Shown: in pieces, positions 55,520-63,799 of the stretch | How positions within the stretch are numbered: position 1 is the stretch's first letter | Layout: each line of letters begins with the position of its first letter | From: Sulfuriferula sp. | GTDB taxonomy: Bacteria; Pseudomonadota; Gammaproteobacteria; Burkholderiales; Sulfuriferulaceae | NCBI GenBank assembly: GCA_013140765.1 | Contig: JABFSE010000008.1 | Coordinates: forward strand, 1 to 64,000 | Reading direction: 5' to 3' | DNA: 64,000 bases | Notes under the pieces: generated by a model | What the model was told of the DNA's origin: nothing | The model's input: only the letters and a program-made list of their open reading frames with translations | The model's database searches: none | Translations under genes and position numbers: made by a program

Positions 55520-57676
55520 ATGCCTCAATTACTCGATGGATTAAATCCAGAACAACTTGCCGCCGTCACCTTACCGCACCAGTCTGCACTCATACTTGCG
55601 GGCGCAGGTAGCGGCAAAACGCGGGTACTGACCACGCGTATCGCCTGGCTACTGCAAACTGCGCAAACCTCGCCGTTGGGCATATTAGCGGTCACCTTTA
55701 CCAACAAAGCCGCAAAAGAAATGCAGATGCGTCTGGGTGCGATGTTGCCGATTAACACGCGTGGTATGTGGATAGGCACGTTTCACGGCTTGGCGAATCG
55801 CTTGTTGCGCACGCATCACCGTGAAGCAGGCTTGCCGCAAGTATTTCAGATTCTCGACAGTGCCGATCAGCTTTCCGCCATTAAACGCCTGCTCAAATCC
55901 ATGAATGTGGATACGGAAAAATTCGAGCCGAAAAAAGTACAAAATTTCATCAACAGCAACAAAGACGCGGGTTTGCGTGCACAGCAGGTCGAATCTTACG
56001 ACACGTATATGCGCCGTCTGGTGGAGTTTTACGCCGCTTACGACGAGCAATGTAACCGTGACGGCGTGGTGGATTTTGCTGAACTACTGTTGCGTAGCGA
56101 AGAGTTATTATCGCGCAATGAAGCCTTACGCCGCCATTATCAGGAACGTTTCCGCTATATTCTGGTGGACGAGTTTCAGGACACTAACCGCCTGCAATAT
56201 CGCTGGCTCAAACACTTCGCAGGCGCAGATTCCGCGCTCATGGCGGTGGGTGATGACGACCAGTCCATCTACGCTTTTCGTGGCGCTCACACGGGCAATA
56301 TGCACGAATTTCAGCGCGATTACGCACACGACAACATCATCAAACTGGAACAAAACTACCGTAGCCACGGCAACATCCTCGATGCCGCCAATGCGCTGAT
56401 TAGCAAAAACCCCACTCGACTGGGCAAAAACTTATGGACGGCCGCCGACGCAGGCGAACCCATCCGCGTTTACCTGGCTTACAACGATCAGGAAGAAGCA
56501 CGATTTATCGCCGAAGAAGCACAAAGCCTGCACCGCGAAGGCACGGCACTCAACGACATGGCGGTGTTGTATCGCTCCAACGCGCAATCGCGGGTGCTCG
56601 AACACGCCTTATTCAGCGCAGGCGTGCCTTATAAAGTCTATGGCGGTCTGCGCTTTTTTGAACGCCAAGAAGTCAAACACGCACTGGCGTATTTGCGCCT
56701 ACTGGCCTTCCCCGACGACGACGGCGCGTTTACCCGCGTAGTCAATTTCCCTACCCGTGGCATAGGCGCACGCACGCTGGAACAACTCATAGACGCGGCA
56801 CAGCAAACCACATCCAGCCTGTGGCAAACCGCTTACGCCAAATATGCAGACGCACCTGCGGGCAAAGGGCTGGCTGGCTTCGTCCAGCTCATCCGCGCCA
56901 TGCAGGAAGCCACATTAGGCGTGACGCTACCCGAAGCCATCGAGCATATACTGCAAACCAGCGGACTGATGGCGCACTACGTCGCCGAAAAAGACGGACA
57001 AGACCGCGTTGACAACCTGAACGAACTCATCAACGCCGCCACTGTGTTCATCAACGATGCCGACGCCATCGCCAACGCCGAAGATAATGGCGGACTGATG
57101 GCGAGCTTCCTCGCCCACGCCGCGCTCGAAGCAGGCACGCATCAAGCAGGCGAAGGACATGACGCATTGCAGTTAATGACCGTCCACGCCGCCAAAGGCC
57201 TGGAATTCCACGCCGTATTTTTATCTGGCATAGAAGAAGGCTTATTCCCCAGCGAACAGTCCATGAACGAACGCGACGGGCTGGAAGAAGAACGCCGCTT
57301 AATGTACGTCGCCATCACCCGCGCACGGCGCAGGCTCTACATCAGCCACGCGCAAAGCCGCATGTTGCATGGGCAAACTCGCTACGGTATCGCCTCACGT
57401 TTCCTCGATGAAATCCCCGTCGAGCTGTTAAAATCCATCAACAAAGGCTACGCGCCAGCCGTTGAGCAATACGCCGCGCCCGCCCCTCGCGCCGCAAAAC
57501 AACACAGCAGCTCACCCTGGCGCATGGGCATGAACGTGCGCCATGCCAAATTTGGCGTCGGCGTAGTCATCAACGTTGAAGGACAAGGCACCGACACCCG
57601 CGTGCAAATCAACTTCGGCGGTGCGCATGGGGTAAAATGGTTGTCACTGGAATACGCGAAACTGGAAGCTGCTTGA
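55520..57676 (+). CDS. uvrD: UvrD-family DNA helicase
   Basis: LILAGAGSGKTRVLTTRIAWLL, VDEFQDTNRLQYRWLKH, VGDDDQSIYAFRGA, LMTVHAAKGLEFHAVFLSGIEEGLFPSE. Confidence 0.96.
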   Translation: MPQLLDGLNPEQLAAVTLPHQSALILAGAGSGKTRVLTTRIAWLLQTAQTSPLGILAVTFTNKAAKEMQMRLGAMLPINTRGMWIGTFHGLANRLLRTHHREAGLPQVFQILDSADQLSAIKRLLKSMNVDTEKFEPKKVQNFINSNKDAGLRAQQVESYDTYMRRLVEFYAAYDEQCNRDGVVDFAELLLRSEELLSRNEALRRHYQERFRYILVDEFQDTNRLQYRWLKHFAGADSALMAVGDDDQSIYAFRGAHTGNMHEFQRDYAHDNIIKLEQNYRSHGNILDAANALISKNPTRLGKNLWTAADAGEPIRVYLAYNDQEEARFIAEEAQSLHREGTALNDMAVLYRSNAQSRVLEHALFSAGVPYKVYGGLRFFERQEVKHALAYLRLLAFPDDDGAFTRVVNFPTRGIGARTLEQLIDAAQQTTSSLWQTAYAKYADAPAGKGLAGFVQLIRAMQEATLGVTLPEAIEHILQTSGLMAHYVAEKDGQDRVDNLNELINAATVFINDADAIANAEDNGGLMASFLAHAALEAGTHQAGEGHDALQLMTVHAAKGLEFHAVFLSGIEEGLFPSEQSMNERDGLEEERRLMYVAITRARRRLYISHAQSRMLHGQTRYGIASRFLDEIPVELLKSINKGYAPAVEQYAAPAPRAAKQHSSSPWRMGMNVRHAKFGVGVVINVEGQGTDTRVQINFGGAHGVKWLSLEYAKLEAA

Positions 57677-57696
57677 TAAACAATAGGAAAAGCCAA

Positions 57697-58110
57697 ATGA
57701 CATGTAATTTTGCTGACGCACATCAACGGCATTTAACTGATGCAGACATACTTTATAAACAAAAACGATGGGCGAATTCAGACCATCTATATGGTTTATC
57801 GGCTGAGTGTGGATTGAAGGCATTGATGGTTAAATTTGGCATGTCCATAACTAACGGAACCCCCACAAATAAACAAGATAAGGTTCACGCAAACAAAGTT
57901 TGGAACAGATATGAAACTTACCGCCAAGGACATGCTTTAGGCACTCAGTACCCGTTACCCTCCTCAAACCCATTTTTAGACTGGGATGTCAGTCAACGCT
58001 ATACTGATCAGCAATACTTTACTATGCAGATAGCTACCCCTCATAAACAAGGCGCTGATTGTGTAACTAATCTTATTAAACAAGCTACATTAGCGGGATT
58101 ATTACCATGA
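57697..58110 (+). CDS. small HEPN-like protein, first gene of the three-gene cassette
   Basis: DADILYKQKRWANSDHLYGLSAECGLKALMVKFGM resembles the second helix of MNT-associated HEPN proteins; low-GC composition. Confidence 0.6.
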   Translation: MTCNFADAHQRHLTDADILYKQKRWANSDHLYGLSAECGLKALMVKFGMSITNGTPTNKQDKVHANKVWNRYETYRQGHALGTQYPLPSSNPFLDWDVSQRYTDQQYFTMQIATPHKQGADCVTNLIKQATLAGLLP

Positions 58111-59417
58111 TAACCTTTGACCAAATTTTACCTAAACTGATTGAAGTGTTTACAGCTTGCCAAGCTGATCTTACACAATTGGGTGAGATGATTATCAACC
58201 GAGACTTAAATGGTCGAGTACGATTGATTGCCAATGACACAATTGAGGGCAATCCTTCTGCCCTAGCTGCCTTAACAACCTTGTGTGAGCAGATGGTTCA
58301 AGCACTTGGCAACCATGCTTTTACTGTCAACCAGTTGGTCATATTTGAAAGTGATGTCAGGGCAATTCGTCATCAAGCCCCATCATTTTTATTAGCAGAT
58401 TTTACTTCTATTTATGTAATTGACCGATTAGCTACTGAAGGAAGCTGGGCAACCATTTCAGAAGAAAGCACAACAGCACCTAGGATCGTTTTCTTCTCAA
58501 TTAAAGGTGGAGTAGGACGATCTACAGCCTTGGCTGTAACGGCCTGGTCGTTAGCCGAACAGGGCAAAAAGGTCTTGGTACTTGACTTGGATTTAGAATC
58601 ACCAGGCTTATCGTCTAATTTGCTACCAGAAGAACGCCGCCCCACTTTTGGTATTACCGATTGGCTAGTCGAAGATTTGGTTGATAATAGTGACATGATA
58701 TTCAAAGACATGGTTGTTACCAGCGAGCTTTCTCGTAATGGTGATATTTATGTTGTGCCTGCACATGGTCGCGATATTGGTGAGTATATTGCCAAACTCG
58801 GTCGAGTCTGGATGCCAAAAATAGGTGCTTGTGGTAAAAGAGAATCTTGGTCTGAACGTCTTGAACGACTCATTGGGCAGTTAGAAAGCAAGTATCTACC
58901 TGATGTTATTTTGATTGATTCTCGTGCAGGTATTGACGAAATTGCATCTGCCTGTGTTACAGATTTGAAAGCTAATTTAGTTTTACTATTTGCACTGGCA
59001 GGCGCACAAACGTGGACAGGCTACAGTATATTATTTAGCTATTGGCATCGTCTGGGGGTTATACAAAAAATTCGTGAGCGACTACAAATTGTGGCTGCCA
59101 TGATTCCTGATGATGAGAGACGCATTGCCTATATTGAGGACTTGCGAGATCAGTCGCAAATCACTTTCATAAACGATGTTTATGATGAATTAACGCAAGA
59201 AAGTGATACAGATGCTTTTAATTTTGATGAGCTGGACGAGTCCGCCCCACATTACCCGTTAGAAATTCGTTGGAATACAGGATTTAGTGCTTTGACTTCG
59301 TTGTCTCGTCGTCTTGAGAGCTTAGATGAAAATACAGTTAAATTAGTTTTTGGTAATTTAATAGACAATGTCTCGATAATTGTGAATGCTGCTCAACAAA
59401 GGAAGGACACATTATGA
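58107..59417 (+). CDS. ParA/MinD-like ATPase with KGGVGR variant P-loop, second gene of the cassette
   Basis: IVFFSIKGGVGRSTALAVTAWSLAEQGKKVLVLDLDLESPGLSSNLL; VILIDSRAGIDEIAS; ATGA overlap with the previous gene. Confidence 0.85.
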   Translation: MITFDQILPKLIEVFTACQADLTQLGEMIINRDLNGRVRLIANDTIEGNPSALAALTTLCEQMVQALGNHAFTVNQLVIFESDVRAIRHQAPSFLLADFTSIYVIDRLATEGSWATISEESTTAPRIVFFSIKGGVGRSTALAVTAWSLAEQGKKVLVLDLDLESPGLSSNLLPEERRPTFGITDWLVEDLVDNSDMIFKDMVVTSELSRNGDIYVVPAHGRDIGEYIAKLGRVWMPKIGACGKRESWSERLERLIGQLESKYLPDVILIDSRAGIDEIASACVTDLKANLVLLFALAGAQTWTGYSILFSYWHRLGVIQKIRERLQIVAAMIPDDERRIAYIEDLRDQSQITFINDVYDELTQESDTDAFNFDELDESAPHYPLEIRWNTGFSALTSLSRRLESLDENTVKLVFGNLIDNVSIIVNAAQQRKDTL

Positions 59418-60910
59418 GCGATGTTAAAAAAATTCGTGAAGCTATGATTAGCGTATTACCGACTTCATCATCTAATTTTGGTGAGTCGATAGAGGCTAGG
59501 TTTATGTATCTTCCTTCTGCTCACATTAAAGCATTGCGTTTAGATTGCAATTTAGTGGTGGGTGCGCGAGGTGTAGGCAAGTCATTTTGGACAAGTGCAT
59601 TAGCTGATGCTGACTTGCGTAAAAAGCTAAAACAGGATTTACCAGAGCTTGAAAATACAGAGGTTCATATTGGTTTTTCTGTAAAAGAAGAAATTGATGA
59701 TTACCCGAATAGTGATATTTTCATTCAACTGATTGGCGCAAAATTTGAGGCATACGATATTTGGCGTGCCGTTGTTACTCGTTGGTTATCTAAGGTAGTT
59801 GATCAATCTATTCCGTGTCAAGAATGGAAAGACACGGTAATTTGGGTTAAAGAAAATCCTGAGGGATTAGCGCGTCTGGTACAAGCGGCAAATACGATCT
59901 TTCAAGAAACGGGCAAAGCGGGTCTAATCATTTTTGATGCGCTAGATAGAACCAGTCATGACTGGAATGGCATGGACAATATTGTTCGTGATTTACTACG
60001 CGCGGTGTTATGGCTTAAATCATTTTCTTGCTTGTATGCTAAAGTTTTTTTACGGGAAGATCAATTTAATCGTGCTGTTATGAATTTTCCTGATGCATCC
60101 AAATTACTGGCAACGAAGGTAGAGTTAACTTGGCTTGGCAGTGATTTGCATGGACTGCTATGGCAAATACTATGTAATGCAGACGGTGGACATGGTGCAT
60201 GTTTGCGAGGAGTGTACCAGCAAGGTTTATTAGGTTTTCTTCCTTTAGGGGGAGCATCAAATTATAAACCTGATAGCTTTATGGATAAGCTCCATTCACC
60301 CAATGAGGGTGATGAGATTTGGAGAATTCATGACGAACTAAAAAGAAACACAGAGCAGCAACGTAAATTATTCGAGTTGCTTGCGGGTGCTTGGATGGGA
60401 ACAAACCCACGTCGCGGTGTGCCTTATGTGTGGATAGTCAGTCATTTAGCCGATGGGCAAGGTTTGACTTCACCTCGATCATTTTTAGTGGCTATTCGAG
60501 AGTCTGCTGAAAATTCGCGCGATAAGCATCCTGAGCATACCGTCGCTCTACATTATGAAAGTATCAAAACGGGCGTGCAAAAAGCCTCTGAGATTCGTGT
60601 GGCAGAAATAGCCGAGGACTATCCTTGGGTCAGACATATTATGAAACCACTACAAGGCCTAAGCCTACCATGTGAGTTTAGGCAAATAGAAGAGAAATGG
60701 CGACAAGAGTTTCCTGAAGGATTGAGTTCGATCACAGCTAACAAATTGCCACCACAGAATATAGATCAGGGTTGGTTGGGTATGAAAAATGATTTAGCAC
60801 GTATTGGTTTTTTTACAACAAAAAAAGATGGTCGTACAGACATGCCTGATCTCTATCGAGTTGGATTTGGTTTGGGTCGTCGTGGTGGGGTGAAGCCCAA
60901 TAAAAGCTAG
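59414..60910 (+). CDS. P-loop NTPase of unassigned family, third gene of the cassette
   Basis: Walker A VVGARGVGKSFWTSAL; Walker B-like AGLIIFDALDRT; ATGA overlap with the previous gene. Confidence 0.75.
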   Translation: MSDVKKIREAMISVLPTSSSNFGESIEARFMYLPSAHIKALRLDCNLVVGARGVGKSFWTSALADADLRKKLKQDLPELENTEVHIGFSVKEEIDDYPNSDIFIQLIGAKFEAYDIWRAVVTRWLSKVVDQSIPCQEWKDTVIWVKENPEGLARLVQAANTIFQETGKAGLIIFDALDRTSHDWNGMDNIVRDLLRAVLWLKSFSCLYAKVFLREDQFNRAVMNFPDASKLLATKVELTWLGSDLHGLLWQILCNADGGHGACLRGVYQQGLLGFLPLGGASNYKPDSFMDKLHSPNEGDEIWRIHDELKRNTEQQRKLFELLAGAWMGTNPRRGVPYVWIVSHLADGQGLTSPRSFLVAIRESAENSRDKHPEHTVALHYESIKTGVQKASEIRVAEIAEDYPWVRHIMKPLQGLSLPCEFRQIEEKWRQEFPEGLSSITANKLPPQNIDQGWLGMKNDLARIGFFTTKKDGRTDMPDLYRVGFGLGRRGGVKPNKS

Positions 60911-61001
60911 GAGTGCACTTTGCGGGATTACTGCATTTGCTCCCATTTCGTTGATAAACGTCTCAGATATCATCCAATAAACTTTATTCATCAACGCATA
61001 T

Positions 61002-62453
61002 ATGCCACTCACTATTACCCTAATCGCTGTGCTCATCGCCCTCGCCATCCTCATCTGGCTGGCGCTACGCATCAACGCCTTGCAAAGCACACTGGCGCAA
61101 CTCCCCGCCCAGCTTGACACGGGGCTAGAACAACGCCACCGCGCCATGTTGAGTGATTTGCATCAGGGTTTGGCGGCGCAATCTGACCGCACTCAGGCGG
61201 TGTTATTGGATGTATCCGATCGCCTGCGCACCCAAATCAGCACTGAGCTATCCAGCACCCGTGCCGCTGTGCAAACCTTACAGCTAGAGCAATCCACGCA
61301 GCTTGCCACCAACCGCGAAGCCATGAGCACTGCCATGCACGCACTGGGACAGTCGCAAGCGACTGAGCTTGCCAACAGCCGCGCCGCGCTTAACCAGCAA
61401 CTCAGCGAATTTGCCGCAGGCTTACAAACCGCCCAAGCCGAATTTCTCAGCAAAACCCTGCAAACACTGGCAGAACAAGCCCGTGCCGAGCAGACGCTAA
61501 TCCAAACCACCATGCAGCAAGCCAGCACACAGCTCGCCGCCGCTGTGGAAACCCTCGCCAAGGGCGTGGACACGCGGCTGGCGGAAATCTCGGGCAAAGT
61601 CACTGAACGTCTGGACGACGGCTTCAAAAAAACCAACGAAACCTTTGCCAACGTCATGGCACGCCTTGCCACCATAGATGAAGCACAAAAGAAAATCGAC
61701 GGCCTCACCAGCAATGTCGTCACCCTGCAAGAATTACTAGGCGACAAACGCTCACGCGGTGCTTACGGCGAAGTCCAGCTCGAAGGCTTGGTGCGTAACA
61801 TCTTGCCGCCCGACGCTTACCAATTCCAGGCCACGCTCTCCAATGGCAGTCGCGCCGACTGTATGCTGGTATTACCTGAACCGACCGGACGTGTCGCCGT
61901 CGATTCCAAATTCCCGCTGGAAAACTACAACCGCATGTTCGCCCGCGACATGGCCGAAGGCGACCGCGCCATCGCCACCCGCGCATTCAAAGCCGACATT
62001 AAAAAACACGTTGACGACATCGCCAGCAAATACATTATCGAGGGCGAAACCTCAGACGGCGCAGTCATGTTTATCCCCGCCGAAGCCGTATTTGCCGAAA
62101 TCCACGCCTACCACGTTGATTTAGTTGAATACGCCATGTCGCGCCGTGTATGGATAGTGTCGCCAACCACACTCATGGCGGTACTCAACACCGCTCGTGC
62201 CGTGATTAAAGATGTCGAAACCCGCCGTCAAGTCCACATTATCAAAGACGAATTATCCAAGCTCGGCAAAGACTTCATCCGTTTCGACGAGCGCATGAAA
62301 AAGCTCGCCGACCATATCCGCATGGCGAATAAAGATGCCGAAGAAGTCCACATCACCAGCCAAAAAATCAGCAAACGTTTCAGCCAGATAGAGGCAGTCG
62401 ATTTAGCGCACCTGCGTGCCCCCACCCCAGCATTATTACCCGATGAAGAATAA
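61002..62453 (+). CDS. rmuC: DNA recombination protein RmuC
   Basis: GDKRSRGAYGEVQLEGLVRNILPPDAY, VAVDSKFPLENYNRM, MFIPAEAVFAEIHAYHVDLVEYAMSRRVWIVSPTTLMAVLNT. Confidence 0.96.
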   Translation: MPLTITLIAVLIALAILIWLALRINALQSTLAQLPAQLDTGLEQRHRAMLSDLHQGLAAQSDRTQAVLLDVSDRLRTQISTELSSTRAAVQTLQLEQSTQLATNREAMSTAMHALGQSQATELANSRAALNQQLSEFAAGLQTAQAEFLSKTLQTLAEQARAEQTLIQTTMQQASTQLAAAVETLAKGVDTRLAEISGKVTERLDDGFKKTNETFANVMARLATIDEAQKKIDGLTSNVVTLQELLGDKRSRGAYGEVQLEGLVRNILPPDAYQFQATLSNGSRADCMLVLPEPTGRVAVDSKFPLENYNRMFARDMAEGDRAIATRAFKADIKKHVDDIASKYIIEGETSDGAVMFIPAEAVFAEIHAYHVDLVEYAMSRRVWIVSPTTLMAVLNTARAVIKDVETRRQVHIIKDELSKLGKDFIRFDERMKKLADHIRMANKDAEEVHITSQKISKRFSQIEAVDLAHLRAPTPALLPDEE

Positions 62454-63123: not shown

Positions 63124-63363
63124 ATGGCCAGTATTACCATACGCAACCTCAATGAAACAGTGAAAGCGGATTTGCGCATACTTGCCGCACAACACGGGCA
63201 TTCTATGGAAGAAGAAGCCAGGCAGATTCTACAGCGAGCTTTGGTCAATAGTCCCAATGGGCTAGGCAGTAAAATCGTGCAGCGTTTTGCAGAAATAGGT
63301 GGCGTGAACCTTGCCACGCCTGCGCGCAGCCAACCTCGTCCCAGTCCTGATTTTGCACCGTAG
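63124..63363 (+). CDS. fitA: FitA-like ribbon-helix-helix antitoxin
   Basis: MASITIRNLNETVKADLRILAAQHGHSMEEEARQILQRAL. Confidence 0.92.
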   Translation: MASITIRNLNETVKADLRILAAQHGHSMEEEARQILQRALVNSPNGLGSKIVQRFAEIGGVNLATPARSQPRPSPDFAP

Positions 63364-63370
63364 TTGACGC

Positions 63371-63799
63371 ATGATATTACTCGACACCAATGTGCTTTTC
63401 GAGCTCATGCGACCACAACCCAATGAGCACGTATTGCGTTGGATAGACCAGCATGCCAGCGCAAGTTTATGGATTAGTGCCATTACCCGTGCTGAAATAA
63501 TGTTAGGTTTGTCATTACTGCCTGACGGTAAGCGTAAACAACAGTTGATGGATATTGCAACCAACATCCTGAACGAAGATTTCGCCCATCGCTGCTTGGC
63601 TTTTGAACAATACGCCGCCGATTATTATGCAACCATCGTCGCTACCCGCACAAAACTAGGCATCCCCATAAGTGTAGAAGATGCACAAATTGCCGCTATC
63701 GCACTGACTAATTCATTCAGCATCGCCACGCGCAATGTAAAAGATTTTAATCATATCGAAGGCTTAACCATTATAGACCCATGGGGAAACACCACTTGA
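63371..63799 (+). CDS. fitB: FitB/VapC PIN-domain toxin
   Basis: MILLDTNVLFELMRPQPNEHVLRWID, ITRAEIMLGLSLLPDG, DAQIAAIALTNSFSIATRNVKDF. Confidence 0.94.
   Translation: MILLDTNVLFELMRPQPNEHVLRWIDQHASASLWISAITRAEIMLGLSLLPDGKRKQQLMDIATNILNEDFAHRCLAFEQYAADYYATIVATRTKLGIPISVEDAQIAAIALTNSFSIATRNVKDFNHIEGLTIIDPWGNTT

Follow-up and report, generated by a model that had tools for sequence, protein, structure and literature searches.

The window analysed here, a 64,000-nt stretch of a Sulfuriferula genome, carries a cassette of three genes (A, B and C) between a uvrD-type helicase gene and rmuC, all on the forward strand (Table 1). The first-pass annotation described three same-strand ORFs joined by 4-nt ATGA overlaps, and the ORF coordinates bear this out in every detail checked, with the A/B overlap at positions 58107-58110 and the B/C overlap at 59414-59417. 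It also noted that the cassette starts 20 nt past the uvrD stop codon without a visible terminator. A scan of this gap agrees, revealing no terminator-like or promoter-like site, and counts in the region equal those in shuffled sequence. The cassette is probably transcribed together with uvrD and rmuC. No RNA family was found by an Rfam scan of 50-64 kb. On the 3' side of rmuC, a ribbon-helix-helix antitoxin-like ORF (63124-63363) is followed, after 7 nt, by a PIN-domain-like ORF (63371-63799), and by their sequences the two resemble a FitAB/VapBC-like toxin-antitoxin pair (63124-63799).

Table 1. Features of the cassette, its junctions and its host flanks in the window
Feature	Position	Strand	Evidence
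Gene A, AbiV-like HEPN protein (PDC-M28A), 137 aa	57697..58110	+	PADLOC PDLC04558 2.5e-52; HEPN profile matches
Gene B, KGGVGR ParA/MinD-fold ATPase (PDC-M28B), 436 aa	58107..59417	+	PADLOC PDLC04559 8.4e-175; NF047398; AF2; Foldseek
Gene C, ORC/Cdc6-like (STAND-type) AAA+ NTPase (PDC-M28C), 498 aa	59414..60910	+	PADLOC PDLC04561 8e-197; AF2; Foldseek; tail conservation
Junction of uvrD stop and gene A, 20 nt, left boundary of the insertion; contains a purine-rich stretch resembling a ribosome-binding site	57677..57696	+	Empty-site comparison
Spacer between C and rmuC, 91 nt, right boundary of the insertion; missing at the empty site	60911..61001	+	Empty-site comparison
uvrD-type helicase gene, left host flank, outside the cassette	55520..57676	+	Last 250 aa 97% identical in G002, directly beside rmuC there
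rmuC, right host flank, outside the cassette	61002..62453	+	96% identical in G002, directly after uvrD there

Acquisition of the cassette in Sulfuriferula

The base composition of the cassette, which we computed, differs clearly from that of its surroundings. GC and GC3 are 0.40 and 0.32 in A, 0.41 and 0.32 in B, and 0.42 and 0.32 in C, versus 0.55 and 0.62 in uvrD and 0.56 and 0.64 in rmuC, in line with the earlier impression that the wobble positions are AT-richer than in the flanks. The GC of the whole cassette is 0.412, whereas 3.2-kb stretches sampled from the rest of the window have a mean of 0.496 (s.d. 0.021, minimum 0.450). A more direct view of the insertion comes from the four closest congeners (G002, G016, G017 and G004), in which the site is empty and a single base divides the uvrD stop codon from the rmuC start codon (TGA C ATG); the same interval measures 3325 nt in the window. 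This comparison involves four genomes because uvrD was not found within 1.5 kb beside rmuC in more distant congeners. The insertion is clean, with neither a target-site duplication nor a recombinase seen at it.

Within the genus, the cassette is found in 3 of 18 genomes, at different places, and the three copies fall into three distant clades of the tree. The window copy pairs with a copy from Methyloprofundus (support 99), the second with one from Thauera (support 98), and the third groups with Burkholderia/Paraburkholderia plasmids (support 100). In a sample of the class, C is present in 8 of 387 genomes, from 8 families. This sporadic occurrence, together with the different sites and distant clades, indicates repeated horizontal acquisition: the cassette is horizontally mobile and has been acquired more than once. 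The first-pass reading of an acquired module is thus upheld by the empty site in four relatives, the sporadic occurrence and the discordant tree, and fixed housekeeping synteny, for which we checked, was not what the comparison revealed. The window copy thereby offers both a clean empty-site comparison and a phylogeny that clearly shows repeated acquisition inside a single genus.

A catalogued three-protein family

The cassette was initially put forward as possibly undescribed, but PADLOC-DB already lists it. In A-B-C order, the three window proteins match over their whole length the PDC-M28A, PDC-M28B and PDC-M28C models (E-values in Table 1) of PDC-M28, a PADLOC-DB v2 candidate with models PDLC04557-04561; A aligns over residues 1-135 to model positions 1-137/138, and the three genes are adjacent on one strand. 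The PADLOC authors put PDC entries forward as candidates, and later papers call them unpublished or awaiting validation (PMC12988326, PMC11811056). Our literature search found no paper naming PDC-M28 and no reported function or phage-protection experiment, and searches on KGGVGR and Sll1717 found nothing relevant. The source cited for the PDC candidates is reportedly a 2024 preprint by Payne et al. That the window cassette is a member of this catalogued candidate family, uncharacterised as far as the literature search showed, is well supported. PDC-M28 is a catalogue entry only; the window copy lies within a host operon and has no obvious promoter of its own. The first-pass annotation had named the products, from their sequences, as a HEPN-like protein, a KGGVGR ATPase and a P-loop NTPase, and all three calls were right in outline. 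Searched by sequence, solved structures provided no useful relative of A or C and matched B only around its P-loop.

Protein A is, on profile and motif evidence, an AbiV-like relative of HEPN proteins. Aligned by hhalign with 15 PF05168 HEPN members, it gave a probability of 82.8 (E 9.4e-6, 116 columns) with the conserved RY aligned, versus 0.2 for an unrelated control. The Pfam HEPN_AbiV model is touched by 18 of 59 A homologues (best 4.8e-5), and the A proteins of Skermanella and Calothrix carry a HEPN label in NCBI-style annotation. Window A itself lies below the curated AbiV cut-offs, with 14 of 27.1 bits in Pfam and 14.4 of 27 in NCBIfam. The protein lacks the canonical HEPN RNase motif Rx4-6H, which occurs at R101 in only 8 of 59 homologues, while R101 itself is kept in 59/59 and the upstream H64 in 58/59. 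This is the pattern of AbiV and AF0298-like HEPNs, which retain the arginine without the following histidine and have an alternative histidine upstream, and for which an alternative active site has been proposed (Anantharaman et al. 2013, PMC3710099). Lactococcus AbiV binds a phage protein and blocks phage development, probably by inhibiting translation in general (PMC3231927); A, too, may act on RNA or translation. A therefore shares with AbiV (PF18728/TIGR04498) the HEPN relationship and the arrangement of arginine and histidine. However, AbiV has 201 aa and is described as a single-gene system, whereas the HEPN protein of the window sits in a three-gene set.

Protein B scores 199.6 bits against NF047398, the NCBIfam model of KGGVGR-motif AAA ATPases (cut-off 90). 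Its AF2 model (pLDDT 94.6) matches ParA/Soj/MinD proteins of the SIMIBI fold in Foldseek, with a probability of 1.00 and a TM-score, normalised by target, of up to 0.75. Unlike NF047398, a domain model of 190 positions, B has its own N-terminal alpha/beta domain of about 115 aa before the ParA/MinD-fold part, and fixed partners. All 68 sequences retain the signature lysine K133, and 64/68 the Walker B residue D271, with E in the remainder, while the P-loop lysine of the deviant Walker A motif KGGxxK[ST] is not found in B, its place being taken by R138 in 68/68. B likely binds ATP, and its hydrolysis of ATP may be slow or altered.

Protein C (AF2 model, pLDDT 93.2) gave Foldseek matches to ORC/Cdc6 (1w5t/2qby) with a probability of 1.00, but with TM-scores of 0.29-0.45 and rmsd of 9-14 Å; in a viral fold library only weak AAA+ matches were found. 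Walker A (GxRGxGK[ST]), the Walker B residues D175/D178, and R214/D216 are invariant in 75 C sequences. C resembles the Sll1717 P-loop ATPases (NF047389) and ORC/Cdc6-type STAND proteins such as BrxC/DUF499 in its P-loop, its LFDALDR-type Walker B and, more tentatively, its ORC/Cdc6-like fold match. It remains below the NCBIfam cut-off for Sll1717 (62.8 of 75 bits), it lacks the long series of C-terminal domains of BrxC, and its RRGGVKP tail is its own. This tail, GLGRRGGVKP, is near-invariant, with R489, G491 and G492 invariant in the 75 homologues. Its last residues are predicted to be flexible by AF2, and such conservation despite flexibility suggests that the tail docks into a partner.

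Distribution, decay and genomic neighbourhoods

Scanning 85,488 species genomes with C yielded 157 relatives, and 79 loci among them were retrieved. These span about a dozen phyla, including Pseudomonadota, Chloroflexota, Spirochaetota, Nitrospirota, Bacteroidota, Bacillota, Planctomycetota, Acidobacteriota, Myxococcota, Thermodesulfobacteriota and Deinococcota. Where the upstream sequence was sufficient, B was present in 69 of 72 loci and A and B in order in 66 of 72, a recurrence of the A-B-C arrangement that goes beyond chance. The exact 4-nt overlap is the commonest spacing, both between A and B (38/66) and between B and C (32/75). PDC-M28 is a widespread, mobile and strictly ordered three-gene set for which we found no reported function. 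Some copies are decaying. In a gammaproteobacterial copy, A and B are split by an IS transposase gene (L080, 4597-6402); elsewhere A is fused to the end of B by a deletion (L082), B is mostly deleted while C is kept (L048 and L058), A and B are both broken (L090), or no A is recognisable (L094). Such decay would be typical of costly or conditionally useful genes. At another locus, the gene preceding B encodes, instead of A, a 318-aa protein that combines a helical segment with a zinc-ribbon-like region, has no PADLOC match (L074, 5543-6499) and is possibly an alternative effector. In Pseudomonas lopnurensis, two dissimilar cassettes belonging to distant clades face opposite ways with about 1.5 kb between them (L026, 3637-6769 and 8271-11430).

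Twenty plasmids carry C, and three plasmids place the cassette inside BREX gene clusters. On Thiodictyon and Sphaerotilus plasmids it lies in a type 2 BREX operon (pglX-ABC-DUF6079/phage-resistance gene-pglZ-brxD), and on a plasmid of Streptomyces sp. NBC_01334 in the order pglW-ABC-pglX. Two chromosomal contexts, PglX-ABC-PglZ on a deltaproteobacterial contig and ABC directly before PglZ in Thauera, surfaced only with PADLOC models; tblastn with type 2 BREX proteins against 8 kb around the 79 loci detected no clear type 2 BREX. The cassette is near a type III restriction gene on a Calothrix plasmid and adjoins integrase genes on Enterobacter, Paraburkholderia and Agrobacterium plasmids. The relatives within BREX operons, of type 2 or otherwise, point the same way as the operon, but the cassette does not belong to the BREX core, and no core BREX gene (PglX, PglZ, BrxC/PglY) was seen beside the window copy. 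For the 79 chromosomal loci, a strong defence-island signal was expected but not found, and the neighbours are mostly unrelated ordinary genes, amid which most chromosomal copies, including that of the window, stand alone. PADLOC matches were possible for only about six of the 134 ORFs adjoining chromosomal loci (E<=1e-60), and the counts of PADLOC families cannot be set against those of the window control, in which one UvrD protein alone matches dozens of GajB models. There was no relative in 50,697 phage records or in E. coli genomes.

Proposed role and its alternatives

Gene order, mobility, the empty site, the fold of B, the modest ORC/Cdc6-like fold match of C, the HEPN relationship of A and the relatives in BREX operons are all directly supported. 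Because relatives occur inside BREX gene clusters, the cassette probably helps to resist phages, and a role against phages or plasmids seems quite likely. The narrower reading, a three-part mobile anti-phage module of the abortive-infection type, is somewhat less secure, yet it is the one that we favour; the first-pass suggestion of an acquired defence-type module finds support in the BREX-operon location of relatives combined with the evidence for acquisition. In such a module, C—an AAA+ protein whose C-terminal part includes a winged-helix-like region and a flexible tail—would sense an infection-linked nucleic acid or protein; B, with its ParA/MinD fold and altered P-loop, would relay or restrain the signal; and A, the AbiV-like HEPN, would act as the effector by cutting or binding RNA, the outcome being translation arrest upon infection. 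This exact division into sensor, switch and effector is tentative. We regard as equally speculative the idea of a distinct immune relay, in which the ORC/Cdc6-like C would drive B, via the RRGGVKP tail, to release A with its alternative active site, and which BREX operons would have taken up on repeated occasions as a fallback against inhibition of BREX itself. If the cassette protects, it would couple translation arrest of the AbiV type to a ParA/ORC-like switch and account for extra genes within BREX operons. With residue-level predictions for each protein, such as the alternative HEPN active site and the invariant tail, its role can be tested directly.

The best rival is a toxin-antitoxin-like addiction module with A as a HEPN toxin, B as a ParA-like antitoxin and C as an accessory, which would persist by addiction rather than by blocking phages. 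It has a precedent in the MAE_18760 HEPN + ParA/Soj dyad, proposed as a toxin-antitoxin pair (PMC3710099), in which, as in the cassette, a HEPN gene is beside a gene for a ParA-type ATPase, and it would fit a small overlapping operon carried on plasmids. However, the MAE_18760 HEPN belongs to a different, motif-active family that keeps Rx4-6H, and no ORC/Cdc6-like third gene is described there. In the cassette, C is the best-conserved part and is also found alone, decayed copies exist that have mostly lost B but kept C or in which A is unrecognisable, and a location in BREX operons is atypical of pure addiction, so that we consider this explanation unlikely, though worth keeping in mind. ORC-like folds also occur with ParA in replication and partition systems, and the best Foldseek matches of C (ORC/Cdc6) and B (ParA/Soj/MinD) would suit an initiator and a ParA-like partner in a replication/partition or nucleic-acid maintenance module of an integrated element. 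This is improbable, since no ParB gene accompanies the cassette, which occurs in chromosomes, between housekeeping genes, as well as on plasmids equipped with a repA or repC of their own, B has arginine in place of the P-loop lysine in every sequence compared, and A would have no role. Least credible is the idea that the cassette belongs to a regulatory or repair operon of the host with a functional link to uvrD and rmuC. The shared strand and the short, terminator-free junction with uvrD favour it, but the junction lacks the cassette in the four nearest relatives and the cassette is elsewhere beside unrelated genes, which refutes a conserved uvrD-cassette-rmuC association.

Finally, Streptomyces plasmids carry C-like genes without annotated A or B (L130:8983-10473, L131:8920-10410 and L132:8920-10410), which suggests that C is able to work without them. 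One of these plasmids has a dndC gene about 8 kb away, and the tails of the solo proteins partly keep the GG of the conserved motif (GLGRRGGVKR, GLGRLGGVRR).
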